A DNA stretch of 64,000 nt. Source: Acidobacteriota bacterium. Its GTDB lineage: Bacteria > Acidobacteriota > Terriglobia > Terriglobales > Acidobacteriaceae. Shown piece after piece: positions 5,967-39,535 of this stretch. The notes under the pieces are model-generated. The model made no database searches, was not told the origin of the DNA, and was given only the letters and a program-made list of their open reading frames with translations. Positions within the stretch are counted from its first letter, which is position 1; every line of letters starts with the position of its first letter. Both the position numbers and the translations under genes were made by a program. The DNA lies in the NCBI GenBank assembly GCA_013289685.1, contig JABCZL010000001.1, positions 313,838-377,837 on the forward strand. Direction: 5' to 3'.

Positions 5967-5981
5967 CTGGTTCCAGCAGTG

Positions 5982-6017: not shown

Positions 6018-6023
6018 GCTACA

Positions 6024-10067: not shown

Positions 10068-11469
10068 ATTTCTCCATTCGCCGGTAGAGCGCTCCGCGGC
10101 TGAGCCCCAGAGTCTCGGCCGCCTGACTCACGTTGCCCTGGGATCGCTGCAGTGCCTTGCGGATCAGAATGGCTTCCACGGATTCGAGGCTGAGCTCTTC
10201 GAGATTCTGGCTCTGCGGCCGAAGCATGTCCAGTCCCAAGTCCGCGCGCTGAATCTCGTTGCCACGGCACATCAGGACGGCGCGCTCCAGCGTATGTTCC
10301 AGCTCGCGCACGTTGCCCGGCCAGGAATACTGCATCATCAGTTGAAGAGCGGGAGCCTCGAAGCCCTGGATAGGCCGCCGGTAACGCGATGCGTAGCGCG
10401 TCAGGAAGTGCAGGGCGAGCGCGGGAATGTCTTCCCGGCGTTCGCGCAATGGCGGCACATGGATCTCGACGGTATTTAACCGAAATAGCAAGTCTTCGCG
10501 AAACTGTCCAGATGAGCAGGCGGCGCGAAGATCCGTGTTCGTTGCGGAGACAACCCGCACGTCCACACGCACAGAGCGGGACGAGCCGACGCGCTCGATC
10601 TCGCCCGCCTCCAACACCCGCAGCAGCTTGGCCTGCTGGCGTAGGGGCACATTGCCAATCTCGTCGAGGAAAATGGTGCCGCCATCGGCTAGCTCAAAGC
10701 GTCCGATGCGGTCGGAACGGGCGTCGGTGAACGCGCCTTTCACATGCCCAAAGAGTTCACTTTCAAACAGCGCTTCCGGCACGGCCCCGGTGTTCACCGA
10801 AACCATGAGGCGCGATGCCCGGCGAGAGACCGCATGCAGTGTGCGCGCCACAACCTCCTTCCCTGTCCCGTGCTCACCGGTGATCAGTACGTTTGCATCC
10901 GAAGGCCCGACTCGAGTAATAGCCTCGAGGACGGACTGCATGACCGGGGCCGTGGCAATAAATTCGGGGCGTCCATCGGCCTGCAGCAGGCGATTCTGAG
11001 CGGCAAGCCGCTCGGCGCGCTGCAATGCGCGGCGCAATTCAACCTGCACCCGCAGGATCGCAAGCAACCGCTCATTCTCCCAGGGCTTCTGGATGAAGTC
11101 CCGGGCACCGCGACGCATGGCCTCCACCGCCAGTTCAATGTTGGCCCATGCGGTCATCACGATCACGGGAGTGGTGTTGTCGAGACCAACAATTTCGGAC
11201 AGAAGGTCGAGGCCCTCTTGTCCGGAAGTCGTGTCCCGCGTGTAGTTCAAGTCGATGAGCAGGGCATCATAGGATCCTGAGGCAAGCGCTTCTCGAACCA
11301 GGGCCGGAGACTTTGCGGTCTCGACTTCATATCCCTGGGGACGCAACAAAAGTTCGAGAGCTTCGAGAACATGCTGCTGGTCGTCCGCCGCCAGAACGCG
11401 CGGCCGGGCGAGGCTGTCCTTTCCCGGGCTGGTGGCGGCAGGTGTTGCGTGTTTGGTAGAAGTCGGCAT
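10057..11469 (-). CDS. NtrC-type sigma-54-dependent response regulator
   Basis: This 470-residue activator has a receiver domain (about 24-145), an AAA+ sigma-54 interaction domain (about 170-400) and a Fis-type helix-turn-helix at the C-terminus (NVSQAAETLGLSRGALYRR). The AAA+ motifs are intact: GEHGTGKEVVA (Walker A), GHVKGAFTDA (sigma-54 contact loop) and GGTIFLDEIGN (Walker B). The receiver has VLAADD and the phosphoacceptor in LIDLNYTRDTTSGQEG, a lengthened loop that I recall from activators beside ABC exporters. It lies 7 bases after the TolC-like gene and overlaps its kinase. The likely target is the sigma-54 promoter at 40919-40935, which drives this same operon, giving positive feedback. 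The Shine-Dalgarno element at the chosen ATG is weak. Confidence 0.94.
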   Translation of the reverse strand: MPTSTKHATPAATSPGKDSLARPRVLAADDQQHVLEALELLLRPQGYEVETAKSPALVREALASGSYDALLIDLNYTRDTTSGQEGLDLLSEIVGLDNTTPVIVMTAWANIELAVEAMRRGARDFIQKPWENERLLAILRVQVELRRALQRAERLAAQNRLLQADGRPEFIATAPVMQSVLEAITRVGPSDANVLITGEHGTGKEVVARTLHAVSRRASRLMVSVNTGAVPEALFESELFGHVKGAFTDARSDRIGRFELADGGTIFLDEIGNVPLRQQAKLLRVLEAGEIERVGSSRSVRVDVRVVSATNTDLRAACSSGQFREDLLFRLNTVEIHVPPLRERREDIPALALHFLTRYASRYRRPIQGFEAPALQLMMQYSWPGNVRELEHTLERAVLMCRGNEIQRADLGLDMLRPQSQNLEELSLESVEAILIRKALQRSQGNVSQAAETLGLSRGALYRRMEKYGL

Positions 11470-11476
11470 GACGAAA

Positions 11477-13465
11477 TTATTGAGTTACGGGGCTGATCGT
11501 ATCATCAACCGTGCCGTTCACGGCATTCTGCAGCTGGATGCCATTATGTTCCAAAGTCGCTCCGGTTGCCCGATCAAGCTCCACCTTTGCTTTCTCAAAG
11601 ACGGTCATCGCCGTCACCAGATCCAGCTCAGCCAGAGCGAGATCTCGCTGGGCGGAAAGGGTCTGATAGCTTGATCCCGCACCCAGGTCCTGCTCTTTCT
11701 TGGTGATGTCGAACGTTCGCTGCGCCAGGTCGCGGGCTTTGCGGGCGGCCTGAACCCGTGCGCCAGTCTGCTCGACCGAATACTGCGCATTGCGCACTTC
11801 GATGCGAACCTGCTTCTTCAGCTGTTCCAACCGCAACTCGGCCTGCCGGTATTCGAGCTCGGAACGGTACTGGTCGGCTTTTGCGACGCGATTACGCAGC
11901 GGGATGTTCAAGTTCAATCCTACGTAGTAATCGGGGGAAGAATTGTTGAACGTATTTTGCAGAGCGCCCGCAAAGTCGACCGGCACACTGGAAGTACAAC
12001 CTTTGCATAGAGGATTGAGTGGCCCCGCTAACCCGGAACCTCCGTAAAAGCCGACTAGTGAAAGCGACGGTAGGAGGGCATTGCGCGCTGCGCGGCGGCT
12101 GATTTGACGGTTGACCAGATCGACGTCGGACTCAGCCAGTTCGGGCCGATCGTGCAACGCCTGCGAGATCAAGTCCTGAATCGACTGGACAGCTCGGGGC
12201 TGCTCGGCTTGCATTCGATCCGTCGGAATGACGGGCATGGCTTCCAGCACCGGATCATCCAGACTTTTGGTGACGGCATTCTTGATGAGAGTCTCCTGCA
12301 GCTGAAGACTGGTGCGGGCGACGGTCAATTCCTGATCGCGCTTGGAAACCTCGGCTTCAGCGCGCAGGACATCCATCTCCGGAATGCTTTGCAGCTGCAA
12401 CTGCTTTCGAGCATTGTCCAAGGTCTGCGTGGCGAAGGCCGAAGATTTTTCGTTCACCTGCGTTTGCTCGTAAGCGCTAACCAGGTCCCAATAGATATTC
12501 TCGATCTGGGTTATGGTGGCGATCACCTGATCTTTGAAAGCGATGTCCGAGATCTTTTTGTTGTTGCTGGCGATGCGCAAATATCGCAAGTTCGGGCCAA
12601 GCCCGAATCCAGCGAGAAGTTCCTGCTGGATGACGACTCGATACTGAGAGTTCAGGCTCGGGGATAAGTTCGTGAAAATGCTATTGGTGGTCTGGCGTCC
12701 ATTGTTGAAACTGAAAGAGACACTCGTACCTGTGGCGAAGGCTTGCGAGTAGTTGACATTAACCTGCCCGGTATTGGTCTGCAGAGTTGGCACGCCGTTG
12801 AGCTGCAAGTTCGAAAGCGGAAGGGTCTGATGCTCTTCTCCTCCATTGGCACTGATGAATGGATCGTAGGAAGAGACTGTCGTCCCGACTCCCAGAGTGG
12901 ATTGCACCAATCCCGACGCGCCTGCTCCAGCTCCACCGGCGCCGCTAGTCGTGCCGCCGGCTCCAGCACCCGGAGCGCCTGTGCCAAAACCTCCAACGCC
13001 ACCCCCGGGAGTTCCCTGCACCACTCCGGTGTTTACACCGCGAAAAAATCCTCCGGCCTGAGTGCGCAGAATGTCGGTATTCGCGATCGGAAGATTGTAG
13101 CGGGCGATGGCCAAATCCAGGTTGTTTTCCAGCGCAAGATCGATGGCATCTTTCAACGAAAGGTAGAGCTTCCCTTCCCGGATGAGACGATCGAGACGTG
13201 ATGAATTAGTCAGCACGGGCTCGGGAACATAGTCTGGCGAATAGGCGTTGAGAGGATTGTGCGATTTCGGCATGTCGAAGCGAACTGGAATGTTGACCGG
13301 GGCGCTCGTTTGCGGAATGACGGTCTGTGGGGCTGCGGCTCTCGCTGAGGCGTCCTGCGGAGTGCTAGCGGCTGTGGTCTGCGCTGGCATCGTCGACGCC
13401 AGCATCCCGTAAACACAAATGACCGCAACTCCCCGTTTCAAGAAAATGGACCCGGAAACATTCAC
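11477..13465 (-). CDS. TolC-family outer-membrane efflux protein
   Basis: This 662-residue protein is expected to be the outer-membrane channel of the export system. It has a signal peptide (basic start, hydrophobic core, cleavage near MPAQT). Two TolC-type repeats carry the long helical hairpins; typical stretches are ALENNLDLAIARYNLPIA and HDRPELAESDVDLVNRQI. A Gly/Ala-rich insertion of about 60 residues (roughly 145-205) interrupts the first repeat and makes the protein longer than Escherichia coli TolC. The frame is open upstream, but the GTG at 13465 has a GGAGGT element nine bases before it and overlaps the ATPase stop by four bases (GTGA), so it is the better start. It sits after the second ATPase and before the two-component genes. 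Confidence 0.92.
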   Translation of the reverse strand: MNVSGSIFLKRGVAVICVYGMLASTMPAQTTAASTPQDASARAAAPQTVIPQTSAPVNIPVRFDMPKSHNPLNAYSPDYVPEPVLTNSSRLDRLIREGKLYLSLKDAIDLALENNLDLAIARYNLPIANTDILRTQAGGFFRGVNTGVVQGTPGGGVGGFGTGAPGAGAGGTTSGAGGAGAGASGLVQSTLGVGTTVSSYDPFISANGGEEHQTLPLSNLQLNGVPTLQTNTGQVNVNYSQAFATGTSVSFSFNNGRQTTNSIFTNLSPSLNSQYRVVIQQELLAGFGLGPNLRYLRIASNNKKISDIAFKDQVIATITQIENIYWDLVSAYEQTQVNEKSSAFATQTLDNARKQLQLQSIPEMDVLRAEAEVSKRDQELTVARTSLQLQETLIKNAVTKSLDDPVLEAMPVIPTDRMQAEQPRAVQSIQDLISQALHDRPELAESDVDLVNRQISRRAARNALLPSLSLVGFYGGSGLAGPLNPLCKGCTSSVPVDFAGALQNTFNNSSPDYYVGLNLNIPLRNRVAKADQYRSELEYRQAELRLEQLKKQVRIEVRNAQYSVEQTGARVQAARKARDLAQRTFDITKKEQDLGAGSSYQTLSAQRDLALAELDLVTAMTVFEKAKVELDRATGATLEHNGIQLQNAVNGTVDDTISPVTQ

Positions 13466-14172
13466 GATGCGCTGACCTCCGCCGGCTGTGCGAGCGTTGG
13501 ATTGGCCGTGTCGCCCACCAGCCATCCGTCCCGCAGTTGAATGGTGCGGCTCCCGTACGCCGCGTTCGCTTCCGAGTGCGTGACCTGCACGATGGTGGTT
13601 CCTTGCTGATTCAGTCCGCGGAACAGCTCCATAATTTCCTTGGCTTGTCCGGAGTGCAGGTTGCCGGTAGGCTCATCGGCCAGCAGAAGCGGAGGTTTGT
13701 GGATCACCGCCCGCGCAATGCCTACAAGCTGCTGCTGTCCCCCCGAGAGCTGGCTGGGATACAAATCCTTCTTCGCGACGATCTGGAAGCGGTCGAGCGT
13801 GTCTGCCACCAGGCTCTGCCGCTGATGGCGCGGAATGTCTTTATAAGAAAGCGGCAGGTCAATATTTTCCTGAACCGTGAGGTCGTCGAGCAGGTGGTAG
13901 CTCTGGAAGACCATTCCGATATTCTTCTTCGCGAGTTCGGCCCGCTGCTTGCGTTTCAGATCGTGAATGCCTTGCTCACGGAACCAGTATTCGCCCTCCC
14001 ACTGGTCGTCGAGCAGCGCCAGCACGTTGAGGAGGGATGACTTCCCTGCTCCGGAGGGCCCCATGACGGTAATGAACTCGCCCTCGCGAATATCGAGGTT
14101 CACGCGGCGCAGCACCCAGGTTCGTCCAGCGCCAGTTTTGTAGCTCCGGTCAACGTTCTTCAATTGGATCAT
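13462..14172 (-). CDS. MacB-type ABC transporter ATPase, downstream copy
   Basis: This 236-residue ATPase of the MacB/LolD type should power one or more permeases of the array. Motifs are GPSGAGKSS (Walker A), [10 protein letters not shown] (Q-loop), [14 protein letters not shown] (signature) and [10 protein letters not shown] (Walker B). It departs from its upstream paralogue: the signature has Leu where Arg is usual, the D-loop reads NLHSGQ rather than NLDSRN, and the switch His is in [11 protein letters not shown]. The frame is open to 14412, but the ATG at 14172 has GAGG five bases before it and gives the normal family length. It follows the tenth permease by 26 bases and its stop overlaps the TolC-like gene. 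Confidence 0.93.
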
Positions 14173-14198
14173 CTTGTCCTCAATTCCCATTTGAATAT

Positions 14199-16709: not shown

Positions 16710-16736
16710 CTGTGAGAACCCCCTGAGTCTTATCTC

Positions 16737-19157: not shown

Positions 19158-19165
19158 AGGTTCTC

Positions 19166-21619: not shown

Positions 21620-21633
21620 TGGCTCCTAAACTC

Positions 21634-24057: not shown

Positions 24058-24070
24058 CAGTTTCCTCTCC

Positions 24071-26482
24071 TTACTCGTATCTCAACGCCACCATAGGATC
24101 GACCTTCGTCGCGCGGTGGGCGGGGATGTAACATGCGGCTACATTCGTCAGGAGCAGCACAAGAGCAACTCCGACATAGGTAAGGGGATCGGTTGACGTC
24201 ACTCCAAATAGCAAACCAGCCATAGCTCTAGCTGCCGCCAGCGCAGCGATTGTGCCCGCAGTGATTCCGGCGAGTGCCTGCCACAATCCTTCTTTCATCA
24301 CCAGGATCAGGACATCCTGGCGCTGTCCACCGAGCGCGATCCGTACGCCGAATTCGCGGGTTCGTTGGCTGACGGAATACGCGATCGCGCCATAGAGGCC
24401 GACTGCAGACAGCACCAACGCCAATGTGGCGAAGGCTTCCATCAGCACAAGACTCAGGCGTCTGGTGGCAAGAGTCTGAAGCGCAATGCTATCCATCGTT
24501 CGTATTTCATTGATCGGCTGGTCCGACTTGATCGCGTGTACGCGCTCCCGCAAAGATCCGGCTACGTTGATCGGGTCCCCTGTGGTGTGAACGAAAAGGT
24601 GCATGCCGGCAAACACGTGATGAGTCGGATCCTGCAAGAAGGGCATGTACAGCGCCGGTTCGGGTGATACATCCAACCCTCGTTGTTTCACGCTCTCCAC
24701 GACGCCAACGACTTCCCGATACCGGGCAACTACATTACCGTCACGGCCGGGGCCTACGTAGTTGACTGCGAAACGCTTGCCGATTGGATCTTGGCCGGGC
24801 CAGTATGTCCGCGCCATGGCTCGGTTCACTATTACGACCGCTGGCGCGGCCTCGTCATCGTGGGACGTAAACCATCGACCTCGCAACAGCGGCGTTCCCG
24901 TCGCGCGAAAAAAATCGGTGCTGATCCAACAGGCATCGGTAGTCGGCACGTTTTTGGGATCTACGGGGCGATCATTGAAAGTTAGAGTCGCCGTGGGAGC
25001 CCAATTTGCCGGCACACAATCGCTCACGCCGGTTGCCTGTACTCCAGGTAGAGATGACACCGACTCCAGAACCTGCTTGTAGAAGGTCGCGCCTGCGGCG
25101 TCGTAGTAATTCGTGCGTAAATAAGTCTCGAGCAATTGCTCGGGCCGGAACCCAGGGTCGGATCGCGCTGCCAGCCGAAAGCTGCGAAACAGTAGTCCCG
25201 CACCCACCAACAGTACCAATGCAAGTGCAACCTCGGACGCGATCAACAACTGCAAACCTCGTCGGCTCGATCTCCCGACTTGTCCCCGTCCTGATTTGAG
25301 GGCGGTAGTGACATCAAGTCGCGAGAAGACTGCCGATGGTCCCCAGGCCAGAAGCAAACTGACAGAAAACGTTAGCAGCAGCGCAATTCCCAATACCGGG
25401 GCATTGACGTGGATGGAATGGTTCCGCGGCAAGTTGCCAAAATTCAAGCTCGTGGTCAGTCTCACTCCCCATACTGCCAAAGCCACTCCCAAGGCTCCCC
25501 CGATTACACTGAGGAGCAGATTCTCAGCGATCAGTTGCTGCAAAATGCGCTTGCGAGTAGCGCCGAGGCCAAGCCTCACGGCTATTTCCGGCTGCCGCTT
25601 TTCGCTTCGGGCCAGCAGTAAGCCCATCACGTTCACGCAGGCGATCAGAAGAACCAGGCCTACGGCGGCAGCAATGATGTCTAGCTCAGCCCGCACCTGA
25701 CCAACGAGTTCGTCCTTCAGCGGCACGAGTTTGATTGCCGAAGTTGAGGATGCCCCGGGCGCTCGCCGCAAGATCGCCGTCAAATCCTGCTCCGCCTGTG
25801 CGCGGCTTACTCCAGGCTTGGTGCGACCAATCACTGTAAGGAATTTGTTTCCTCGTAACCGCATCCAAGCAAAGTCAGGAATGACCTTTGCCCAGATATC
25901 GGTATCCGGAAACAGGTCTGGGATTGATGGCATTACTCCGATGACGGTCTGGGCCCCTCCGCTGAGGTTCAGGGCACGTCCCAGCACATGCGGGTCGCTG
26001 TCGAGCTGTTGCCTCCAGAAGCGCTCTGAAATGACGACCTGGACTCCGTCCGTGTGGTACTCCTCCGGGGTGTATAACCGGCCGAGGAGCGGCTGTACTC
26101 CCAGCATTGGAAAGAAGTCGTATGAGATGCCTGTGCAGATTACGTTTCGTGGCTCGCCTTGCCCGGTCAAGCTGTACGTGAAGTGGGGGAGCAGTTCGGC
26201 TAGGCCATCAAAAGACCGGCTCTGTTCCTTGTAGTCCTGAAAATCGGGCCCAGACGCGCCGGTCTTGATTGATTTCTCTTCCTGCGACTCTGCCCACACG
26301 GCAAAGAGATGGTCGGGGTCGTGAAATGGCAACGGCCTAAGGAGCACGCCTTGAATTACGCTGAAGATGGCCGTATTCGCGCCAATGCCCAGAGCCAGAG
26401 TGACGATCGCCACTACCGCGAATCCTGGACTCTTGCGCAACTGGCGCAACGCGTAGCGAACATCTTGGATTAGGCCAGTCAT
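24071..26482 (-). CDS. ADOP-type ABC permease, array copy 6
   Basis: An 803-residue double FtsX/MacB permease with the standard start [20 protein letters not shown] and TM1 [16 protein letters not shown]. The first core has VVISERFWRQQLDSDPHVLG, the mid-protein helix is ASEVALALVLLVGAGLLFRS, and the end is [17 protein letters not shown]. The base composition here looks slightly less GC-rich and less codon-biased than in neighbours, judged by eye only. The gap to the previous permease is 10 bases, and a purine-rich AGAGA element lies ahead of the ATG. Confidence 0.93.
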   Translation of the reverse strand: MTGLIQDVRYALRQLRKSPGFAVVAIVTLALGIGANTAIFSVIQGVLLRPLPFHDPDHLFAVWAESQEEKSIKTGASGPDFQDYKEQSRSFDGLAELLPHFTYSLTGQGEPRNVICTGISYDFFPMLGVQPLLGRLYTPEEYHTDGVQVVISERFWRQQLDSDPHVLGRALNLSGGAQTVIGVMPSIPDLFPDTDIWAKVIPDFAWMRLRGNKFLTVIGRTKPGVSRAQAEQDLTAILRRAPGASSTSAIKLVPLKDELVGQVRAELDIIAAAVGLVLLIACVNVMGLLLARSEKRQPEIAVRLGLGATRKRILQQLIAENLLLSVIGGALGVALAVWGVRLTTSLNFGNLPRNHSIHVNAPVLGIALLLTFSVSLLLAWGPSAVFSRLDVTTALKSGRGQVGRSSRRGLQLLIASEVALALVLLVGAGLLFRSFRLAARSDPGFRPEQLLETYLRTNYYDAAGATFYKQVLESVSSLPGVQATGVSDCVPANWAPTATLTFNDRPVDPKNVPTTDACWISTDFFRATGTPLLRGRWFTSHDDEAAPAVVIVNRAMARTYWPGQDPIGKRFAVNYVGPGRDGNVVARYREVVGVVESVKQRGLDVSPEPALYMPFLQDPTHHVFAGMHLFVHTTGDPINVAGSLRERVHAIKSDQPINEIRTMDSIALQTLATRRLSLVLMEAFATLALVLSAVGLYGAIAYSVSQRTREFGVRIALGGQRQDVLILVMKEGLWQALAGITAGTIAALAAARAMAGLLFGVTSTDPLTYVGVALVLLLTNVAACYIPAHRATKVDPMVALRYE

Positions 26483-26492
26483 CGGGATCTCT

Positions 26493-28940
26493 TTACTCGT
26501 ATCTCAGCGCCACCATAGGATCGACCTTCGCGGCGCGGCGGGCCGGCCAGTACGCCGCAAACAACGCCACGCCGAGCAGCAGCACAGCCACCAGCGCCGT
26601 CGTAGGTACATCGAAGCGGCTGACGTGATAGAGGCTCGCCTGCAGCAGTCGAGTAGCGAGAAACGACAGCGACAGCCCCAGCCCGCAGCCCGCCAAGCCA
26701 ATTCGCGCCGCGCGTCTCAGCACCTGCCAGTAGATGCTGCTCCGCTCCGCTCCCAGAGCCATGCGCACTCCAAACTCACGCGTGCGTTCGGCAACCAGGC
26801 ACGAGATCACTCCAAACAATCCGATCGCGGCCAGCACCAGCGCAATCACGGCAAAGCCGCCCAGCAACAGCACGGTAAAACGTCGCTGCGCCAACGACTC
26901 CGCGACCAGGCTCGTCAAAGTCGTGGTGTTGTAGACGGGCAGGTCTTTATCGACAGACCACACTTGCCGCTGCACTTCCTGGAACAGACCCTGCTGGAAC
27001 AAGCCCTGCTCTGACCGGTCGCCGCGCAATACGAAAGCGGTGCGCTCGGCGGCTCCACTCTCCACTTGAAACATGGAGTCGTAGATCATCGGGGGCGGAT
27101 CGGCATCCAGTGCTGAAATGTGGACATCGCCAGCGATGCCCACAATCGTGAACAACGCACGGTCTCCCCACTGAAAACGCTGACCAATCGGATCCTGGCC
27201 GGGGAAATACTGCTTCGCCAGCGTCTCGCTGACAATCGCCACATTCGTCGTGTCATTACGATCCTGCTCAGTGAAATCCCTTCCCCTCAGCAGAGGAATC
27301 CCCATGGCGCGGAAGTAGCCCGGACCGACCAGCGAATTCTCCGCGAAGTGATAGTCGTCGGCAGCGGCATGCTCCAGCCGGAACCCGATCTGCCGCGCGT
27401 CGCTCAGTGGAAGATGGCTGGCGGCGGCTACGGTCGTTACACCCGGCAGATGAGAAAGACGGTCAAGGATCTCCTTCTGCGCAGCCTGACGCTTCGCCGG
27501 ATCGGGATAACGGCTGCGATCGAACAAGGTTCTGACCACGAACCCGCCGCTAGGATCGAAGCCGAACGGAGAGTCCAGCAATCGCACGAAGCTGCGGAGC
27601 AACAGGCCACCGGCCATCAGCAATACCAGGGCGGCAGCAATTTCGGTCGTGGCCAGGGAATTTTGCAGTCGCTGACCGGCCCAGGCTGGTCCAATCTGCG
27701 ACTTCTCTTGAAGCGACGCACCCGGCGAAACTTGGGACATCCTCCACGCCGGGATGACGCCAGAGAGAATCGCCGTCACCAGAGAAAGCGCCAGTGCGAC
27801 CAGAAGAACCAGCGGGTGCAGCATCACATCGTGCAAGCGTGGCACGTCGCTGGGACCAAAACGCCTGAGCCCAGCTACTACCGCCTCTGCCACGAGAATG
27901 CCGCAAGCGGCGCCGCACAGCGAGAGCAGCGCACTCTCCAGCAGGCACTGCCGCACGATCCGGCCGCGGTCTGCACCGACTGCGCAGCGGATCGCCATCT
28001 CATGGCCTCGTTGATTGCCGCGCGCCAGCAGCAGGTTGGCAACGTTGGCGCACGCGATTAGAAGCACACACGCAACCGCCAAGATCAACAGCGTCACCAG
28101 CGGCCGCGCCTTCTCCACGGCATGCGCCGCAAAAACATACGTGCGCGGCTCGACCCGAATCGTCCCCGAATAGCCGTACTGCTTCATGAAATCGGCGGCG
28201 ATGTTCTCCATATCAGCCCGCGCCTGCTCACGCGTGACACCCGCCTTGAGCCGGCCGACCAGACCTACGCCAAATTCCATGGTGCGATTCTCAGGGCTCA
28301 GCTGGTTGGGCGAGAACGCGATCGGCACCCACAAGTCGGCCATCTCAGACAGCGGCGCTCCATCGAATGGAAAACGGAAAGAGGGCGGCATCACGCCGAC
28401 CACAGTGTAGGAGTGCTCATCGAGCTTGACGGTCTTGCCCAGAATGTTCGGATCGCGGCCATATTCATGCTCCCACAGCGCGTGCGAAAGCACGACCACA
28501 TTACCTGCCCCGTACCGGTCTTCGTCCGCTGTGAACGCACGTCCCAACTCGGGCAATACCCCTAGGAGTGGGAACGCCGATGCTGACACGCTCGCCGCAT
28601 TGATGCGCAGCGGCTGGCCCGCGCCCGTCAGATTGAAGCCTGCGCTTTCGTAGGCAGCGACCTGAGAAAAAGAGTGATTGCGATCTCGATAATCCTGATA
28701 CTCCCCGGCCGCGACTCCAACCTCATCTGCCGACATTCCCGGCAGGGTCTCAGTGACCTGGACCAACCGCTCCGGCTGCTGGTAGGGCAGTGGCTGCAGA
28801 AGCACCGTGTCGACCACGCTGAAGGTCGCAGTACTCGCCCCAATACCGATGGCCAACGTCAGGACAGCGATCGCCGTGAACCCGGGGTTCTTCCCCAGCA
28901 TCCGCCAGCCGTATCGAATGTCCTGCACCACACTCTCCAT
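26493..28940 (-). CDS. ADOP-type ABC permease, array copy 5
   Basis: An 815-residue double FtsX/MacB permease. It starts [20 protein letters not shown], and TM1 is in [16 protein letters not shown]. The first core contains [20 protein letters not shown], and the central helix region is [20 protein letters not shown]. The second core carries a longer loop with a near-duplicate [13 protein letters not shown] (about residues 620-640). The end is [17 protein letters not shown]. The gap to the previous permease stop is 9 bases, with GAGGTGATCCG before the ATG. It shows the same fold as its neighbours with no ATPase domain. Confidence 0.93.
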
Positions 28941-28949
28941 CGGATCACC

Positions 28950-31373
28950 TCACTCGTAGCGCAACGCCACCATGGGATCGACCTTCGTCGCGCGATACGC
29001 CGGTATGTAGCTGGCGACGAAGGCGGTGGCAGTCAGTGCAACCGAAACCACGGCGAACGTCGTTGGATCGGTAGGTCTCACACCGTAGAGCATGGTGGTC
29101 AAGAAGCGGGTCAGCGCCCAGGCTCCCGCCGCGCCGAGTCCGACTCCTGCGAGCGTCAGCGCCATGCCCCGCGCGATCACCAGCCACAGCACTTCCTGCC
29201 GTCCAGCTCCCATCGCCATACGAATTCCGATTTCCCGCGTGCGTTCCACCACGCTGTTCGTCATCACTCCATAAACTCCAACCGCGGCCAGAGCCAGCGC
29301 CAATCCAGCGAACCCAGCCAGCAGAACCATCAGCACACGTTGCGGAGCGATCGACTCGGCAACTAACTGATTCATGCTCATGACATACGACAAAGGCTGA
29401 TCTTTATCGACCGACCACACGACCCGCTGCACCCCGTTGGCCAGGTTCAGCGGATTCGAGAGCGAGGTGCGAACCACAAAACACATCAGCGACGCCAGTG
29501 CTTGCTGGTAGGGCACATAAACCTGAGCGGTTGCATCTGTACTCGCCCCGAAATGGCGTACGTCGCCGACCACTCCCACGACTGTGCGAGGCGTCTTCTC
29601 GTACTGCAGAGTAATCTGTTCGCCGACGGGATTTTTGTTTGGCCAATACTGCTGTGCCAGGGACTGGCTGACCACCGCGACCGGCTGGCCGCTGGTCGAG
29701 TCCTGCTCGGTGAAGGTTCGTCCCCGGAGGGTTGCGATTTCCATGGTGGAGAAATAGTCCGGGCTGGCCGGGCTCCACACGACAGGAGGACTCGTGGCGA
29801 GGTTTTCCGCTGCTCTCCCGGCGATGGTGAAGGTTCGGACTCCGTACCACCCACTCAGCGGAAGGAAGGTAACGCTGCCCACCGAGCGCACTCCAGGCAG
29901 GGTTCTAATTCCGTTCAGCACCTGATCTGTAAACCTTCTCTGCTGCGGTTCGGTCGCGTACTTCGCCTCGGGCAGTGTGATTCTGAACGTCAGAACGCCA
30001 TCCGAGCTGAAACCCGATTTCCTTCCCATCAGATCGACGAAGCTCCTGACCAGAAGCCCCGCTCCAACCAACAGGACCAGGGACAAAGCCACTTCGGAAA
30101 CGACCAGCGTGCTGCGGTAAGCTCCGTTGCGCGGGCCGCGGGAACTTCGACTGGCATCTTGCAGAGACTCGCGCAAACTGATGCGCGAGCGCAGCGCCGG
30201 GGCCAGGCCAAATAACAATCCGGTCAGCAGCGAAACCACCAGCGCAAACCCAAGGACTCTGCCTTCAATCGGAATGCTATCCACGCGAGGGATATTTAGA
30301 TTTGAAACGGTGGGAGGAAACATGCGGACCAGCATGTTGACGCTCAAGGATGCCAGGAACACGCCTAGCGCGCCCCCCACCAAACCCAACAGCATGCTCT
30401 CGATGACGAACTGCCGGACCAGCCGCAACCGGCTCGCGCCCAGCGCAGTGCGCACTGCAATTTCGCCTCGCCTCCGGGCCGAACGCGCCAGCAGCAGATT
30501 CGCGACGTTGGCGCAGGCAATTAGCAACACAAAACCTACGGCCCCCATCAGTGCCAGTAATGCAGGGCGGATATCCCGTGTGGCCTCCTCCTCTGCAGAG
30601 ACAAGATGGGCACCCTGCCCCTCGTTCGTATCGGAATGCAATGCCGCAATGCGCGCGGCAATCGTGGCGGTCTCGGCTTGCGCCTGTTGCAGGGAAACTC
30701 CCGGTTTCAGCCGCGCCCACACTCGCAAAAAGCGTGCACTTCGATCATTCAATGTTCCCGGCGGAATTACGATCGGGGTCCACAGATCATTGTCACGATC
30801 CGGGTAGTAAAAGTCTGCCGGCATCACTCCGATGACGGTGTAAGGCTCACCATTCAAGGTGACAGCGTTCCCCAAAACTCCCGGGTTGCCGCCAAATCGC
30901 CGTTGCCACAAGCGATAGCTCAGCACCACAACGTGGTCGTGTCCGGGAGCATCTTCTCCTGCCGAAAAAGTGCGCCCTAGAATCGGATCCGCTCCCAACA
31001 GGCCGAAGAAATTAGCCGACAACTGGTACCCGAGCAGCGACTCAGGATCGCCGGCATTGGTCAGGTTGTAGACCTGATCGGTCGACGAGCCAATCTCTTC
31101 AAATGCGCGGCTTTGATTACGCAGATCCTGAAGGTCGCCCGGAGAAATGGCGTCTACATCAATACCCTTCTTCGGATTCGTGCCCCAAATCTTGACGAGC
31201 GCGGCAGCGCTCCTGTACGGAAGAGAATGCAACAGGACGGTATTAATCACGCTGAAAATCGCCGTGTTCGCGCCAATCCCCAGCGCCAGGGTGATGACCG
31301 CAACTGCGGCGAACCCCGGACTCTTGCGCAACTGGCGCAACGCGTAGCGAAGATCTTGGAGTATGCCAGCCAT
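28950..31373 (-). CDS. ADOP-type ABC permease, array copy 4
   Basis: An 807-residue double FtsX/MacB permease, close to the family consensus: [22 protein letters not shown]1 [36 protein letters not shown] in the first core, EVALSLVLLVGAGLLVRSFV in the middle and [17 protein letters not shown] at the end. The frame is open to 31445, but that extension is the out-of-frame tail of the preceding permease gene. The ATG at 31373 has AAGGAG six bases upstream and aligns with the paralogues. It starts 10 bases after the previous stop, consistent with translational coupling. Confidence 0.93.
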   Translation of the reverse strand: MAGILQDLRYALRQLRKSPGFAAVAVITLALGIGANTAIFSVINTVLLHSLPYRSAAALVKIWGTNPKKGIDVDAISPGDLQDLRNQSRAFEEIGSSTDQVYNLTNAGDPESLLGYQLSANFFGLLGADPILGRTFSAGEDAPGHDHVVVLSYRLWQRRFGGNPGVLGNAVTLNGEPYTVIGVMPADFYYPDRDNDLWTPIVIPPGTLNDRSARFLRVWARLKPGVSLQQAQAETATIAARIAALHSDTNEGQGAHLVSAEEEATRDIRPALLALMGAVGFVLLIACANVANLLLARSARRRGEIAVRTALGASRLRLVRQFVIESMLLGLVGGALGVFLASLSVNMLVRMFPPTVSNLNIPRVDSIPIEGRVLGFALVVSLLTGLLFGLAPALRSRISLRESLQDASRSSRGPRNGAYRSTLVVSEVALSLVLLVGAGLLVRSFVDLMGRKSGFSSDGVLTFRITLPEAKYATEPQQRRFTDQVLNGIRTLPGVRSVGSVTFLPLSGWYGVRTFTIAGRAAENLATSPPVVWSPASPDYFSTMEIATLRGRTFTEQDSTSGQPVAVVSQSLAQQYWPNKNPVGEQITLQYEKTPRTVVGVVGDVRHFGASTDATAQVYVPYQQALASLMCFVVRTSLSNPLNLANGVQRVVWSVDKDQPLSYVMSMNQLVAESIAPQRVLMVLLAGFAGLALALAAVGVYGVMTNSVVERTREIGIRMAMGAGRQEVLWLVIARGMALTLAGVGLGAAGAWALTRFLTTMLYGVRPTDPTTFAVVSVALTATAFVASYIPAYRATKVDPMVALRYE

Positions 31374-31383
31374 CAGAATCTCC

Positions 31384-33807
31384 TTACTCGTAGCGCAATG
31401 CCACCATGGGATCGACCTTAGCCGCACGCCATGCCGGCACCGCACACGCGATCATCGACACGGCCCCGAGCAGCACAATCACGCCGAAGTATGTGAGCGG
31501 GTCGAGGGGCGATATCCCGAAGAGCAGAGCGGCAATAGCCTGGCTCGCCGCCGCAGCCCCGAAAAGTCCGAGCACAATGCCGATCGCTGTAAGCCTCATC
31601 CCCTGCCGAAGTACCAAAACGAGGATGTCGCCACGAGACGCGCCCAGAGCCGATCGCACTCCGATCTCGCGCGTTCGCTCCGTGACGCTGCCAGACAGGA
31701 CGCCATAGATGCCGGTCGCCGCCAATATCAATGACACCAGACCAAATGCCTCGAATAAGATCAGCACAAAGCTTCGCTCGGCTGCCGACGCGGCGAGCAG
31801 GCTCTCCATGGTGGCAACGCGAACGATCGCCTGATCCTTGTCCACCGACCAGATCGCGTTCTTAATGGCCGGGGTAAGTGAGGCCACGTTGCCGCTTGCG
31901 CGGACTACCAGCGACAGCGTGCCGTCCGCCCAATGCCACTGCGTAGTCGAGGTGTACACTGCATCGGATTCGCTCAGGGCCAGTGACATCTGTTTAACGT
32001 CAGAGATCACGCCAACGATTGTGAAAAAAGGCGAGTCAACCGGACCGATGCGAACACGTTTTCCGATGGGGTCTTGATCAGGGAACCGGCGCTTCGCTAG
32101 CGACTCGCTGATCAAGATCGCGCGGGGAGCCTCAGCCGTATCCTGAGCGTTCAGAAGACGGCCGCGGCGCAGTGAGACACCAAGAGTTGAGAAATAATCT
32201 GGCGTCACAGCGTATCGAAACACGGGGTAACCGGCTCGGGGATCGTCATTTTCGAATCGCGCGCCGTAAACGTCCGAGTCGCCACTCAACGGCAGCTGGC
32301 TCGTAAATGCCGCCGCCGTGACCCCTGGAACCGCCCGCACCGCGTCGAGGGCCTGGGCGAAGAACTGATGACAAACGCGGTCATCGTCGTAGCGGCGTCC
32401 GTAAGTTTGCACTTGCATGGTGAGCACGCCTGATCCGTCAAAGCCCGGTGAGACGGCGAACAGCCGCCGTAAACTGTGTAGCAACAGTCCCCCGCTCACC
32501 AGCAGAACCAGCGCAAGCGCGACCTCGGCGACGGCGAACATGCGGCGGGTCAACTGATGAGTTCCAGCCGTACGCTGCGAGTTTTCCTGCACTCCCACAT
32601 GCAGGTCGCCGCGCGAGGCGTGCCGTGCAGGAATCAATCCAACAACTAGGCCAATCATGGCCGTAATGCCGAGCGCGAAAGCGAACACCGTGCCGTCGAC
32701 GCGGATCGCATCCACCCGCGGAAGCTCGGGAGGACTGAGCGCCACCAGTGCGCGTGTACCCACCTGCGCCACCATCAATCCGACGGCGCCGCCCAGAACG
32801 GCCAGCAGCAGACTCTCTGTGATCAGTTGACGGACCAGTCGCGATCGTCCCGCTCCCAGCGCTATGCGCAGGGAGAATTCACTGCGGCGCTGCGCGCTCC
32901 GCGCCAGCAAAAGATTCGTCACATTCACGCAGGCGATCAAGAGCACCAGCATCACCGCCCCGAAGACGGCGAGCAGCGCGGGCTTCACGCCGCGAGTGAC
33001 TTCATCTTGCAAGGAGTTCACGATGAGCCCGTGCGCCAGCGACACAAAACTGGGCCGCGGAAATTCCGGCACGGGCGTGTGCGCGATCCAATTCAGATCG
33101 CCCCGGACTTGTTCCATGCTGACGGCGGCCCGCACCCGCCCCACCATTCGCAAGTGATGTCCCCATTCCCGCGAATCGATCGCAGCAATATTTCCGGTGT
33201 CGTATTGCAAGGGCGACCAGACTTCGGCTTCGGGAGCGAGAATATTGTGGAACGTGCGCGGCATGACGCCGATCACGGTGTAGCTCTCGCCGTCGAGCTT
33301 GACCTGCTGTCCGATGATTGTGATGTCGGCGCCGAAACGCCGCCGCCACAGCCCGTCGCCAAGGATCACCACTTTCGGCCCGTGGAGCACGTCGTCCGCA
33401 GCCTGGAAGCCTCGTCCCAGCGCCGGTGTTATTCCCAGTGTCCGCAGATAGCCGGCACTCACCTGCTGCCCATCGAAGCGCTCCGGCTGCTCTCCGCCCG
33501 TGAGCGTCGGTTGCCACGGCTTCACCACCGCGATCGCGTCGAGCGTGCGGCTCCGTTCCGCCAGTTCGCGATAGGTGTGGAAGGTCTGGGGAATCCGCGA
33601 TCCATCTTCCCCGGCATACCAGATCATCATGATCCGGTTAGCAGTCGGGTACGGCAACGGCTCGAATAGGATCGGGTTGATCGTGCTGAAGATGGCGGTA
33701 GTGCCCCCGATGCCGAGCGCCAGGATCACGACCGCCGTGCAGGCAAACCCCGGGCTCTTGCGCAGCTGGCGCCACGCGTAGCGAATATCTTGCAGCAGTC
33801 CGGTCAT
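31384..33807 (-). CDS. ADOP-type ABC permease, array copy 3
   Basis: An 807-residue double FtsX/MacB permease. It starts [20 protein letters not shown] with TM1 in ILALGIGGTTAIFSTIN, and the first core contains LGDGLWRRRFGADITIIGQQ. The central helix is EVALALVLLVSGGLLLHSLR, and the last bundle ends [23 protein letters not shown] precedes the ATG, which lies 13 bases after the stop of the upstream permease. It is the first of seven consecutive copies in the LWxRRF-type subgroup and follows two copies of the other subgroup. Confidence 0.93.
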   Translation of the reverse strand: MTGLLQDIRYAWRQLRKSPGFACTAVVILALGIGGTTAIFSTINPILFEPLPYPTANRIMMIWYAGEDGSRIPQTFHTYRELAERSRTLDAIAVVKPWQPTLTGGEQPERFDGQQVSAGYLRTLGITPALGRGFQAADDVLHGPKVVILGDGLWRRRFGADITIIGQQVKLDGESYTVIGVMPRTFHNILAPEAEVWSPLQYDTGNIAAIDSREWGHHLRMVGRVRAAVSMEQVRGDLNWIAHTPVPEFPRPSFVSLAHGLIVNSLQDEVTRGVKPALLAVFGAVMLVLLIACVNVTNLLLARSAQRRSEFSLRIALGAGRSRLVRQLITESLLLAVLGGAVGLMVAQVGTRALVALSPPELPRVDAIRVDGTVFAFALGITAMIGLVVGLIPARHASRGDLHVGVQENSQRTAGTHQLTRRMFAVAEVALALVLLVSGGLLLHSLRRLFAVSPGFDGSGVLTMQVQTYGRRYDDDRVCHQFFAQALDAVRAVPGVTAAAFTSQLPLSGDSDVYGARFENDDPRAGYPVFRYAVTPDYFSTLGVSLRRGRLLNAQDTAEAPRAILISESLAKRRFPDQDPIGKRVRIGPVDSPFFTIVGVISDVKQMSLALSESDAVYTSTTQWHWADGTLSLVVRASGNVASLTPAIKNAIWSVDKDQAIVRVATMESLLAASAAERSFVLILFEAFGLVSLILAATGIYGVLSGSVTERTREIGVRSALGASRGDILVLVLRQGMRLTAIGIVLGLFGAAAASQAIAALLFGISPLDPLTYFGVIVLLGAVSMIACAVPAWRAAKVDPMVALRYE

Positions 33808-33820
33808 CGTTCGCCTCCCA

Positions 33821-36301: not shown

Positions 36302-36338
36302 ATTTTGCCTCCCAGCCCGCCTCCCAATTCGCCACCCA

Positions 36339-38813
36339 CTACTCGTACCTCAAGGCCACCATGGGTTCGATCTTGGCCGCACGCCATGCGGGCAGAAACG
36401 CGGCAATGCCGGCCACCATCACGACACAACAGGTTGCCAGCGCGAAGCTCACGCGATCGAGCGGAGACAACTGGTAGAGCATCGACTCCAGAAGACGGGC
36501 GCAGAACAACGCCCCGACGAGTCCGATCGCCGTACCGGAGCAACTAATCAAAAGGCTTTCCCGCATGATCATCCACAGCACCCGGCTGCGTTGCGCTCCG
36601 AGCGCCATGCGGGTTCCGATCTCCCCGGTGCGGCGGTTGGTTCGAAACGACAACGTTCCGTAGAGTCCAGTGGCCACCAGAAGCGCGGCCAGTCCGCCGA
36701 AAAAACCGCCCAGTCGCGCAAACATTGCCGGCTCCTCGAAGGATTCCTCAAACTGGGCCCGCTGTGTCGTGGGCTTCTCCAGCGGAATGTTCGGGTCGAT
36801 GTTGTGAACCACCTGCCGAATCGTAGGCAGCAGGTTCAACGGTTCTCCAGTCACCCTCACCTCGACATGCATGGTTTGCCCGGCACTCAGGTTCTGGAAG
36901 GCGGGGTAATAGGCCATGGGCATGGGCACCTCACCGACGCTGGTGTACTTGCTGTCCTTCACCACACCGACGATGGTTCGGTTATCGCGAACCTTGTGGC
37001 CAAGTGGATTCGCATTTGACAAGAACCGCTTCGCAAACGTTTCGTTGACCACGACGACCGGAAGTGAGGACGGAGTATCGGTCTCTTGAAGATCGCGGCC
37101 TTCAAGAATTGGAACTCCGAGCACATGGAAGTAGTCGGGACCAACATTGTTGCTGCGCACGATGGCGTTGGAACCAAATTTCGCAAAAAGGCCGACTCCG
37201 TCGACCATGTCGTCATTGTTGTTGCTCCAGCCTGAGCCGATGCGATTCTCCATCAGCGTTGCGGATTCCACGCCGGGCAGCGCATGAATGCGCTCGAGCA
37301 AAGTACGATAAAAGCCCAGAGTCTCCGGGGCACTTTGCGCGCGCTGTGGAGTGATTCCAAAAACCAGCAAGCCGTCGGCGCGCAGTCCGAGATCCTGATT
37401 CTCGTAATTGCGTAGCGTGCGCAGCAGCAGCCCGGCCGCGACCAGCAGCAACAGGCAAATTGCCACTTGCGACGACATGAGCACCCGGCCGCCCAGAGCG
37501 CGGCGCCGGTCCTGCGTGATATTCGTTGCGGTCGCCCGCAGCACGCCTGAAACCGGGACCCGCAACGCACTCCACAACGGCGCGACACTGAAGACGAGAG
37601 CACTCATCACTGAAATCGCAAGAGTGAAGAACAACACGGCACGGTCCGGATCGAGACCGGTTTCGATCCCCGACCAGGCGGCCAGAGCGCGCGTTGCGAA
37701 CAGTGCGAATACCCAGCCCAGGCCCGCTCCCGCCATCACCAGCAGCGAACTCTCGGTGAACAGTTGCCGAAAAAGGTGCAGTCTCTCGGCTCCAATCGCC
37801 ATTCGCAGGCTGAACTCCCGTTGCCGCGCTTCATTGCGAGCCATGATCAGCAGAGCAACGTTGGTACAGGCGATCAGCAGCACAAGCAACACCAGGCCCA
37901 TCAGCATCCGCACCGGTTCGCGGTACTGCTGGTTGTAGCCTTGAATTCCTTTGGCGGGATCAAAGTTCAGCAACGGTTTCCATTGCTTCGGATCAATAGT
38001 GCCGACCCCGATCTTGGCCGCTTCCCCGAACGTGGATTGCAGGGCAACTTGCGCCTGCTGAGGCGTGACATGCGTCTTGAGACGGGCTATGAGCGGGAGG
38101 CACCACCATTTCGGCGTGCCATAAAGACTATTGATGCTGGCGGGGTTGCCCCACGCATTCAGCTCCGCCCGGCTTTGCAGAGGAACCCAAAAATCCGTTG
38201 CACTTCCGGCTTCGACTCCGTGAAATCCCTGCGCAGCAATGCCGACAACAGTGAAAGGCACATTCTTGACGAACAACGTCGCGCCGAGAACGGCAGGATC
38301 GCGGGCAAAACGCCGCGTCCAATAGTCGTAACTGATGACGAGTACGGGCGAGTGACCTTTCTCGTCCTCGAGAGAAAACCCGCGACCACGGGCAATCTCC
38401 GCGCTCAAGCCGGAAAAGAAGTTTCCGCTGACCTCGTCACCCTGGGCTTCCTCTGGCGTGTCCCCGTACCGCACCGCGACCTTGCCAATCCCCAGCGGAA
38501 CGTACGCGATCACGTCGTCCAGAACATCATTGCGCTGGCGAAGCGCTTCGAACACCGGTTCCGAAAACGAGGTATTGCCGTTGCCCGTGTTGCTCGCCCC
38601 GGGCGGCTGGTTCTCGGATGCGATCTGCAGATAGTAAAGCCGCTGCGGATCGCGCACCGGCAGCATGCGCGACAAGACCGCATTCATCACGCTGAAAACC
38701 GCCGTATTCGCGCCGATTCCCAGGGCAAGGGTCGAGACAGCCACGACCGTAAACCCCGGGCTCTTGCGCAACTGACGCAGCGCATACCGAACGTCTTGGA
38801 GCAAACCGCTCAT
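36339..38813 (-). CDS. ADOP-type ABC permease, array copy 1 (first translated)
   Basis: An 824-residue double FtsX/MacB permease that heads the array. It starts [22 protein letters not shown]1 is [16 protein letters not shown], the first core has ISYDYWTRRFARDPAVLGAT, the middle helix is QVAICLLLLVAAGLLLRTLR, and the end is [17 protein letters not shown], with Ile-Glu for the usual Val-Asp. Its ATG overlaps the upstream ATPase stop by four bases (ATGA), so it is the copy most tightly coupled to that ATPase and its best candidate partner. Loop lengths and the SYxYW motif place it with copies 2 and 10. Confidence 0.93.
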   Translation of the reverse strand: MSGLLQDVRYALRQLRKSPGFTVVAVSTLALGIGANTAVFSVMNAVLSRMLPVRDPQRLYYLQIASENQPPGASNTGNGNTSFSEPVFEALRQRNDVLDDVIAYVPLGIGKVAVRYGDTPEEAQGDEVSGNFFSGLSAEIARGRGFSLEDEKGHSPVLVISYDYWTRRFARDPAVLGATLFVKNVPFTVVGIAAQGFHGVEAGSATDFWVPLQSRAELNAWGNPASINSLYGTPKWWCLPLIARLKTHVTPQQAQVALQSTFGEAAKIGVGTIDPKQWKPLLNFDPAKGIQGYNQQYREPVRMLMGLVLLVLLIACTNVALLIMARNEARQREFSLRMAIGAERLHLFRQLFTESSLLVMAGAGLGWVFALFATRALAAWSGIETGLDPDRAVLFFTLAISVMSALVFSVAPLWSALRVPVSGVLRATATNITQDRRRALGGRVLMSSQVAICLLLLVAAGLLLRTLRNYENQDLGLRADGLLVFGITPQRAQSAPETLGFYRTLLERIHALPGVESATLMENRIGSGWSNNNDDMVDGVGLFAKFGSNAIVRSNNVGPDYFHVLGVPILEGRDLQETDTPSSLPVVVVNETFAKRFLSNANPLGHKVRDNRTIVGVVKDSKYTSVGEVPMPMAYYPAFQNLSAGQTMHVEVRVTGEPLNLLPTIRQVVHNIDPNIPLEKPTTQRAQFEESFEEPAMFARLGGFFGGLAALLVATGLYGTLSFRTNRRTGEIGTRMALGAQRSRVLWMIMRESLLISCSGTAIGLVGALFCARLLESMLYQLSPLDRVSFALATCCVVMVAGIAAFLPAWRAAKIEPMVALRYE

Positions 38814-39535
38814 GCATGCACGTCCGCCATCAGTTTCTGCAGCTCTTCTTCGGCCACAACTTTGCCGTCGAACAAATGCACTTCGCGCTGAGCATGTTTG
38901 GCAAACCGAGGATCGTGCGTCACCATGCAGATCGTCGCGCCCTCACGGTGCAGGTTCTGCAACAGTTCCATCACGGCTTCGCCGTTGCGTGAGTCGAGGT
39001 TTCCGGTGGGCTCGTCCGCCAGCAGGATGGAGGGTTTCCCGCCCAGCGCACGCGCCACGGCGACGCGCTGTTGCTGACCACCGGAGAGTTGCGACGGGTA
39101 GTGCCGGACGCGGTGCGCCATGCCCACCCGTTCCAGCGCTTCCATGACCCGCGCCTTGCGGTCGGCGGCGGGCATTCTCTGGCGGTAGGTGAGCGGCAGT
39201 TCGACGTTTTCGTACACCGTCAAATCGCCAATCAGGTTGAAACTTTGAAAGATGAACCCGATCTCCTGGTTGCGAATGCGGGAACGCTCGGCAAAATCGA
39301 GGTTCTCAACCGTCTTGCCGTTTAGCGAATAGCGGCCCTGCGTCGGCGTATCCAGCAATCCGATGATGGAAAGCAATGTGGACTTGCCACAGCCCGACGG
39401 TCCCGACATGGCCACGTACTCGCCTTTGGCAATCGAGAGGTGAACTCCCGAAAGGGCATGGGTCTCAATTTCGTCGGTATAGAAAACCTTGGTCATCTCC
39501 TGGATCTGGATCAACGGCTGGCCTGTTTCGGTCAT
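38810..39535 (-). CDS. MacB-type ABC transporter ATPase, upstream copy
   Basis: This 241-residue ATPase of the MacB/LolD type has fully canonical motifs: GPSGCGKST (Walker A), GFIFQSFNL (Q-loop), LSGGQQQRVAVARA (signature), [16 protein letters not shown] (Walker B and D-loop) and VTHDPRFA (switch His). It is expected to sit on the cytoplasmic face and drive the MacB-like conformational cycle of a permease. It follows the adaptor gene by 46 bases and overlaps the first permease by four bases. Compared with the downstream ATPase it has the standard signature Arg and D-loop Asp, so the two are not interchangeable recent duplicates. Confidence 0.95.
   Translation of the reverse strand: MTETGQPLIQIQEMTKVFYTDEIETHALSGVHLSIAKGEYVAMSGPSGCGKSTLLSIIGLLDTPTQGRYSLNGKTVENLDFAERSRIRNQEIGFIFQSFNLIGDLTVYENVELPLTYRQRMPAADRKARVMEALERVGMAHRVRHYPSQLSGGQQQRVAVARALGGKPSILLADEPTGNLDSRNGEAVMELLQNLHREGATICMVTHDPRFAKHAQREVHLFDGKVVAEEELQKLMADVHA

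Follow-up and report, generated by a model that had tools for sequence, protein, structure and literature searches.

What powers the acidobacterial orphan permeases (ADOPs), a family of transporters described as lacking ATPase neighbors? The question is raised by a locus in a 64,000-nucleotide stretch of an Acidobacteriota genome (contig JABCZL010000001.1, positions 313,838 to 377,837), referred to here as the window. The locus encodes ten ADOPs in a row, enclosed by two unlike MacB-type ATPases (ATPc and ATPv) and accompanied by an adaptor, a TolC-like channel, and a regulatory gene pair. We propose, with a probability of roughly 0.6, that this set, here termed the hub, is a shared engine and conduit for interchangeable MacB-type (type VII ABC) export permeases, local and orphan alike. 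As comparison of gene neighborhoods shows, the adaptor, the two ATPases, the channel, the sigma-54 regulator, and the kinase form a recurrent frame that holds between 0 and 10 permeases between its ATPases. The same parts probably also serve scattered orphan ADOPs, because permease-free hubs sit in ADOP-rich genomes and because hub and ADOPs come and go together. If this is correct, it explains a large ‘orphan’ transporter family that seemingly has no motor.

The hub operon spans positions 8622-40841 on the minus strand and contains 16 closely spaced genes, listed from 40841 down to 8622.

39582-40841, minus strand: HlyD/MacA-type periplasmic adaptor (membrane fusion protein), the operon's first gene; Pfam HlyD_3 and HlyD_D23
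38810-39535, minus strand: ATPc, canonical MacB-type ATPase; ABC_tran, canonical motifs
36339-38813, minus strand: ADOP permease W1; TIGR03434, 824.0 bits
33821-36301, minus strand: ADOP permease W2; TIGR03434, 832.7 bits
31384-33807, minus strand: ADOP permease W3; TIGR03434, 879.4 bits
28950-31373, minus strand: ADOP permease W4 (start corrected, structure predicted); TIGR03434, 979.0 bits
26493-28940, minus strand: ADOP permease W5; TIGR03434, 901.7 bits
24071-26482, minus strand: ADOP permease W6; TIGR03434, 855.1 bits
21634-24057, minus strand: ADOP permease W7; TIGR03434, 883.3 bits
19166-21619, minus strand: ADOP permease W8; TIGR03434, 805.6 bits
16737-19157, minus strand: ADOP permease W9 (start revised relative to the longest frame); TIGR03434, 909.9 bits
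14199-16709, minus strand: ADOP permease W10; TIGR03434, 901.8 bits
13462-14172, minus strand: ATPv, variant MacB-type ATPase; D-loop His, LSGGQQQ-L, H-loop THS
11477-13525, minus strand: TolC-like outer membrane channel, real start probably further in; Pfam OEP, E 4.8e-40
10057-11469, minus strand: NtrC-type sigma-54 response regulator; Response_reg, Sigma54_activat, HTH_8
8622-10067, minus strand: histidine kinase, partner of the NtrC regulator; HATPase_c

The initial annotation of this DNA described ten complete permease genes on one strand with near-identical ends, enclosed by a canonical and a variant ATPase. All of this is borne out. The gaps from W1 to ATPv measure 8 to 37 nt, with ATPc overlapping W1 by 4 nt, and once the starts of W4 and W9 are corrected, all ten frames are intact and encode 803-836 aa. 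Every one of the ten proteins finishes in PMVALRYE, and the ATPases were confirmed by ABC_tran matches and motif comparison. The two-component genes also included in the set stood in part: the regulator and kinase at 8622-11469 belong to it, and the multi-PAS kinase and receiver at 41162-46950 probably lie outside.

All ten permeases pass the TIGR03434 profile that describes ADOPs (805.6-979 bits against a cut-off of 622.3), aligning from profile position 1 or 2 to 803. Their membership, as judged by sequence, is based on this profile and not on orphan context; the array is flanked by two ATPases, and its members differ from the family description by the candidate partner ATPases proposed here. 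The genome has 34 ADOPs above the cut-off, 24 of them outside the array. As 10 of the 34 are found here and the frame recurs in other genomes, the array is not a chance arrangement. Near the 24 others, no MacB-type ATPase was found in the fetched flanks: for 23 of them these flanks contain no ABC ATPase gene, and for one they include a distant ABC ATPase (25-29%).

Recurrence of the hub and its co-occurrence with ADOPs

The number of ADOPs per operon and their flanking ATPases were surveyed across genomes, as the initial annotation had envisaged, and the frame recurs. In the family sample, which comprises 60 genomes from 59 genera, loci follow the order adaptor, ATPc, permeases, ATPv, zero to two further permeases, channel, NtrC regulator, and kinase where contig ends allow, with a variable number of permeases. 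The NtrC regulator and kinase are present at many other hub loci. The same parts recur in the phylum, where some genomes show another order, split parts, or ATPv alone in the fetched stretch. In these neighborhood surveys, an ADOP is a protein scoring above 400 bits with a profile of the ten window proteins, rather than a TIGR03434 match.

The permease count is based on 55 loci that have both ATPases on one fetched stretch and strand, drawn from the window, L039-L130, and five chosen loci of a contig scan. Full-length permeases between the ATPases number 0 at 19 loci, 1 at 15, 2 at six, 3 at six, 4 at four, 5 at four, and 10 at one, the last being the window with the largest number in this table. 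Loci with their ATPases on separate fetched pieces fall outside the count; one such locus (G059, two pieces) has eight permeases and a fragment. Some of the 19 loci with zero permeases have ADOPs just outside the ATPases (for example L084, L102, L193). The contig scan, made with the ATPv alignment, hit generic ABC motifs, so that most of its 80 loci are other ATPases and eight near orthologs (57-66%) were used. An adaptor, a MacB-type ATPase with permeases, and a TolC-like channel, the parts of a tripartite exporter, are encoded together in the window and elsewhere. The suggestion of a tripartite set shared by many permeases is upheld to the extent that these parts recur together with a variable permease number; the alternative of mixed permease dimers was not supported.

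Two atypical hubs were observed. The first (L070 of G015, 5969-6705) is permease-free and its ATPv is truncated, apparently in decay; with only 2 ADOPs in the genome, it looks like a system being lost. The second (L087 of G138), also acidobacterial, contains permeases scoring far below ADOP members, alongside an adaptor (25%) and an ATPc (53%) of weak similarity, and is perhaps a transferred version.

Hub genes and ADOPs occur in the same family genomes. ADOPs are present in 35/60 (match at E≤1e-180, a threshold at which ADOP-free genomes may still hold related permeases). Orthologs of ATPv are found in 28/60 at 69-100% identity (one partial, in addition to the truncated copy in G015), those of ATPc in 29/60 (E≤1e-84), and those of the adaptor in 29/60. 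The next ATPv matches are paralogs at no more than 46% identity among the matches listed for the 60 genomes, and the only further adaptor match at E≤1e-50 is a second copy in G035. The two conserved, unlike ATPases tend to occur together: 26 genomes carry both, two only ATPv, and three only ATPc. At least one of ATPv, ATPc, and the adaptor is present in 32 genomes, all of which carry an ADOP; the 25 ADOP-free genomes contain no hub gene (Fisher 6e-14). ADOPs without a hub gene were seen in three genomes, namely G018 (1 ADOP), G021 (2), and G037 (4; genome 53% complete). Permease-free hubs are found in G033, G035, and G039, with at least 13 ADOPs each, and in G017 with 7, and both of their ATPases are 81-85% identical to those of the window. 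The number of ADOP candidates scored per genome was 3 for the phylum, 13 for the family, and 16 for Bacteroidota, and counts at these values are lower bounds. A second adaptor-ATPc pair lies near three ADOP genes in G035 (C1:176109-178099 and L160), the genome that also has an ADOP-free hub.

Shared descent does not explain this match. On an rpoB tree of 53/60 genomes, the hub changes 17 times and ADOP presence 17 times, with 14 changes on the same branches, as compared by eye. When hub labels were shuffled, the mean was 17.9 changes and the minimum 13; the hub is therefore as scattered as shuffled labels, and the 14 shared changes are not accounted for by descent. The tree is based on a single gene and midpoint rooted, seven genomes gave no match, and all its sequences lack the RpoB N-terminal part, with eight shorter still.

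The association extends to the phylum and beyond it, in statistics that are uncorrected for kinship. Across 297 Acidobacteriota genomes, ADOPs are present in 69/71 with ATPv vs 39/226 without (E≤1e-180). By our count, 65 of these 69 genomes had every one of their 3 scored ADOP candidates pass, vs 13 of the 39. ATPv relatives with 57-61% identity were found in Larkinella, Mucilaginibacter, and Sinomicrobium, as well as in two further metagenome-assembled genomes, one from Bacteroidota and one from Ignavibacteria, with the order adaptor, ATPc, permease(s), ATPv in Mucilaginibacter and Ignavibacteria. The double permeases of these genomes are ADOP-related but score low with the window profile; those of Bacteroidota fall below 400 bits and were tallied with a separate profile (A3), built from six of their own number, rather than by TIGR03434. 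In the family of Larkinella (61 genomes), 50 genomes have ATPv and double permeases, two ATPv only, one permeases only (a 2.2 Mb genome), and eight neither. Larkinella itself has 57 double permeases at E≤1e-60, including nine consecutive ones behind an adaptor and ATPc; its ATPv lies on a different contig. In a second Bacteroidota genome, a row of ten full permeases and a partial one extends to the contig end. As a result of these two runs, arrays of about this size are not considered unique.

A predicted fused permease and two unlike ATPases

The initial annotation assigned a double FtsX/MacB architecture to the permeases, and structure prediction agrees. An AlphaFold model of W4, built with an alignment of the ten window sequences (pLDDT 80.8, pTM 0.73), shows eight long helices placed as membrane helices, a pair of periplasmic domains, and two coupling helices (about residues 302-310 and 712-720), as assigned by inspection. 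The protein is thus predicted to be a fused pseudo-dimer of two FtsX/MacB units, and its FtsX-type membrane units and MacB-like periplasmic domains are those of the type VII ABC fold. The best fold match is YbbP (VIA Z 23.2 over 648 residues, rmsd 10.7; Z 23.1 over 673 residues, rmsd 9.8). With a Foldseek TM of only 0.42, the domain arrangement differs between the two. Each ADOP half aligns to MacB (VIA Z ~17) and to LolC/LolE, and BceAB was also matched. Both halves contain a conserved coupling segment that is alike in array members and orphans. By our count, alignment A1 has 61 invariant columns, of which 12 belong to the periplasmic parts (residues 50-265 and 455-670) and 49 lie elsewhere. 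Hence, variation is concentrated in the heads, with the chassis and ends staying constant.

The two ATPases differ in their motifs. The catalytic motifs of ATPc are canonical in 49 sequences, four rows below 58% identity having been dropped beforehand. In ATPv (n=89, including contig-end fragments), the D-loop Asp is replaced by His in 93%, Leu follows LSGGQQQ in 96%, and Ser follows the H-loop His in 94%. Catalytic residues are kept nonetheless, with 98-100% of the sequences retaining the Walker A Lys, Walker B DE, and H-loop His. In three relatives from Bacteroidota and Ignavibacteria, the D-loop residue is Asn. A putative ATPc/ATPv heterodimer on an asymmetric permease is the simplest reading of this pair.

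From these features, a working model can be outlined. Each ADOP would be a self-sufficient pseudo-dimeric permease. Its two coupling helices would engage two ATPases, probably an ATPc and an ATPv, and the protein would dock with the adaptor and TolC-like channel that all permeases share. Which substrate is exported would depend on the variable periplasmic head of the individual permease. Permeases, including distant orphans, would compete for the shared hub, the expression of which is probably set by the NtrC/kinase pair. The array in the window may have grown as permeases that had already diverged were taken in, the conserved gene ends serving as sites of recombination.

Several known systems resemble parts of this model. 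MacAB-TolC, a type VII ABC system, likewise combines an adaptor, MacB-type ATPase and permease folds, and a TolC-like channel. However, MacB is an ATPase fused to a four-helix permease that dimerizes, whereas the hub has two separate, unlike ATPases and a duplicated permease predicted to be a fused pair; each adaptor and channel is also accompanied by many permeases, and the operon includes an NtrC/kinase pair. LolCDE shares with the hub asymmetric FtsX-type permease units and separate ATPases, but LolC and LolE are separate chains, LolD is a homodimer, and one substrate class is served. YbbAP-TesA of E. coli is built around YbbP, a single chain that works with two ATPases and has MacB-like periplasmic domains and one coupling helix in each half (PMC12646458, consulted sections). 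Like ADOPs, YbbP is a duplicated permease of ~800 aa whose ATPases are separate proteins, but it has 10 membrane helices vs eight long helices in the W4 model. It uses two copies of one ATPase and a hydrolase partner, with no adaptor or channel (PMC12646458). A functional analogy is provided by group II energy-coupling factor (ECF) transporters, where one engine with two different ATPases (EcfA, EcfA') serves several competing, exchangeable membrane parts, according to the consulted sections of PMC7755397. By analogy, the hub would be one engine with two unlike ATPases that serves exchangeable membrane parts; the ECF systems differ in being importers with unrelated folds and no adaptor or outer membrane channel. 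Engine sharing is otherwise known from importers such as these, and the hub, if our reading is true, would bring it to tripartite export.

The origin of the array and competing explanations

The array looks assembled rather than amplified, since its ten permeases are diverged and have their nearest relatives in other genomes. Identity among them is 31-41% (mean 34.5%, 45 pairs), and they are therefore not recent duplicates. W10 is 72% identical to the sole hub permease of a congener (G006) and W5 is 74% identical to a hub-locus permease of G045, while relatives of W9 at 63-67% occur in G059, G036, and G035. For the other seven, the four best-scoring matches each are at most 47% identical (191 ADOPs compared). 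Recent tandem amplification was ruled out on the basis of these identities and because the closest relatives by bit score of all ten are in other genomes.

The gene ends are more alike than the bodies at DNA level. Within the array, synonymous codon identity reaches 0.65 over the last 12 codons and 0.51 near the start, vs 0.38 in the body. The 24 orphans of this genome, at 0.35, 0.38, and 0.37, have no comparable excess, and only 2/24 of them end in PMVALRYE. A 205-nt repeat with 82% identity (repeat search, family D7) spans two joints.

26343-26547, minus strand: joint W5/W6, copy of the 205-nt repeat
31234-31438, minus strand: joint W3/W4, second copy of the 205-nt repeat

These repeats and the alike gene ends fit recombination at shared gene ends. 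End homogenization as a general rule was ruled out: the last 12 codons exceed every body window in only three of 22 gene groups (G000, 0.65 vs 0.38; G059, 0.55 vs 0.34; G261, 0.77 vs 0.45). No such excess was found in the other 19; a few sequences in this comparison are cut at the end of the fetched stretch. End recombination is therefore claimed only for arrays like this one.

Several observations weigh against the hub as a shared engine, and co-occurrence is not proof of partnership. As many as 39 of the 108 ADOP-bearing genomes of the phylum have no ATPv ortholog; some of these (G061, G119) have an ATPase right beside an ADOP, so that simpler ATPase-ADOP pairs exist. Two loci (L212, L214) consist of adaptor, ATPc, and ADOP, with no ATPv within the 14 and 10 kb fetched. 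Because ADOPs can occur without ATPv, the putative ATPc/ATPv heterodimer cannot be general. ATPv without permeases at the thresholds used is found in G074 and G138 in the phylum and in G361 and G368 in Bacteroidota, and ATPv stands alone within the 20 kb fetched in several genomes. The genome with the truncated ATPv (G015) keeps ATPc and the adaptor and still has its 2 ADOPs. In addition, ADOP genomes are somewhat larger (mean 4.5 vs 3.9 Mb), and the window's own adaptor lacks a good sigma-54 site in the 600 nt scanned upstream.

One rival reading is a purely local machine, in which hub parts serve the permeases of their own operon and orphans use other MacB-type ATPases or are no ABC pumps. 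Family genomes offer many other ABC ATPases (19 to 47 ATPv matches each at E≤0.001), and some orphans have their own PadR regulator and so are separate transcription units. We consider this reading unlikely: the permease-free hubs of G033, G035, G039, and G017 keep both ATPases in ADOP-rich genomes, and the 25 ADOP-free family genomes still have many ABC ATPases and no hub gene. Less probable again is an indirect link, through which hub and ADOPs would be correlated by genome kind or lifestyle (large genomes, often exchanging genes) and not by a shared complex. In its favor, the distribution of the hub over the tree looks random, and the size difference points the same way, ADOP-free genomes being the smaller on average. 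However, ADOP-free genomes of 4.8 to 5.5 Mb (G014, G028, G029, G048, G056) lack any hub gene tested, genomes of only 2.9 to 3.3 Mb (G020, G043, G044, G058) have hub genes and an ADOP, and the pairing is found again in another phylum.

Mixed dimers, in which two different ADOPs pair in one transporter to give combinatorial pumps, had been suggested by the initial annotation. They would be possible with ten permeases in one operon if these are co-expressed, and MacB works as a homodimer. The W4 model argues otherwise, since its single chain contains a pair of FtsX/MacB units with eight long helices and a pair of coupling helices, as does its best fold match YbbP, a single chain that works with two ATPases. 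On this model, mixed dimers are unnecessary because one ADOP is already predicted to be a fused pair, and we regard them as very improbable. Equally hard to credit is a selfish or neutral array produced by repeated copying at a recombination hotspot, with no shared function. The homogenized gene ends and the long repeats at the joints are what it would leave behind, but the ten frames are intact at 803-836 codons despite 31-41% identity and the flanking hub genes are conserved. Moreover, in the metagenome-assembled genome of a sulfate-reducing acidobacterium, 80 of 102 ‘acidobacterial orphan permeases’ are transcriptionally active and 13 differentially expressed, according to the consulted sections of PMC10564751.

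The shared engine therefore remains our preferred reading, and a more far-reaching version of it can be formulated. It would constitute a new principle of ABC export, in which a single conserved hub, made up of adaptor, channel, and a heterodimeric ATPc/ATPv motor under sigma-54 control, drives as many as dozens of single-chain permeases from across the chromosome, each with a periplasmic head of its own, collects permeases like cassettes by end recombination, works in at least Acidobacteriota and Bacteroidota, and explains the orphans. This version is tentative, and we place it slightly below even odds. ADOPs are named in few open papers. Their numbers per genome can be very high: besides the 102 of the sulfate reducer, two Dyadobacter genomes have 28 and 33 such permeases by RAST annotation (PMC11573002, consulted sections). 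No description of a shared ATPase hub for ADOPs, nor of their function or motor, was found in the open-access literature. If the hub powers ADOPs, a deletion of only one or two genes would silence an entire repertoire of exporters at once, and their function would become directly testable.

Regulation and neighboring genes

Sites resembling a sigma-54 promoter are enriched before the adaptor. With at most one mismatch to the -24/-12 consensus, they were found within 600 nt upstream at 17/53 loci vs 5.5% of random stretches, and 11 of the 17 lie within 45 nt of the chosen adaptor start codon. None that was convincing was found upstream of the 24 orphans of the same genome. Two scans for internal promoters and terminators gave no clear sign of either. 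The first gave 0 promoters vs 3.3 and 14 terminators vs 13.7 in shuffles; the second gave 3 promoters vs 4.4, and 27 terminators vs 17.4 in shuffles (sd 4.9), the last about 2 sd above. A single transcript is plausible. At loci L137, L140, L141, and L146 of the same genome, five PadR genes stand directly before ADOP genes (one ADOP partial), and at least some orphans are therefore separately controlled. The full-length ADOPs behind PadR genes belong to a longer subtype of ~875-952 aa.

The genes on either side of the operon have features of their own. Upstream, 41635-46950 encodes a histidine kinase of 1771 aa with an ETR1 (ethylene receptor)-like N-terminal domain and ~10 PAS domains, several of them very alike, which looks like internal PAS amplification. 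It is followed by a separate receiver gene (41162-41638). This pair had no match in the 32 family loci screened, where often only ~3-4 kb upstream of the adaptor was covered, and the phylum-wide neighborhood comparison was made with queries other than these two genes. Adjoining the other end of the operon on the opposite strand (6122-8590) is a BlaR1-type M56 peptidase gene, the product of which has an extended, repetitive C-terminal region in which Q, G, E, and L are abundant.

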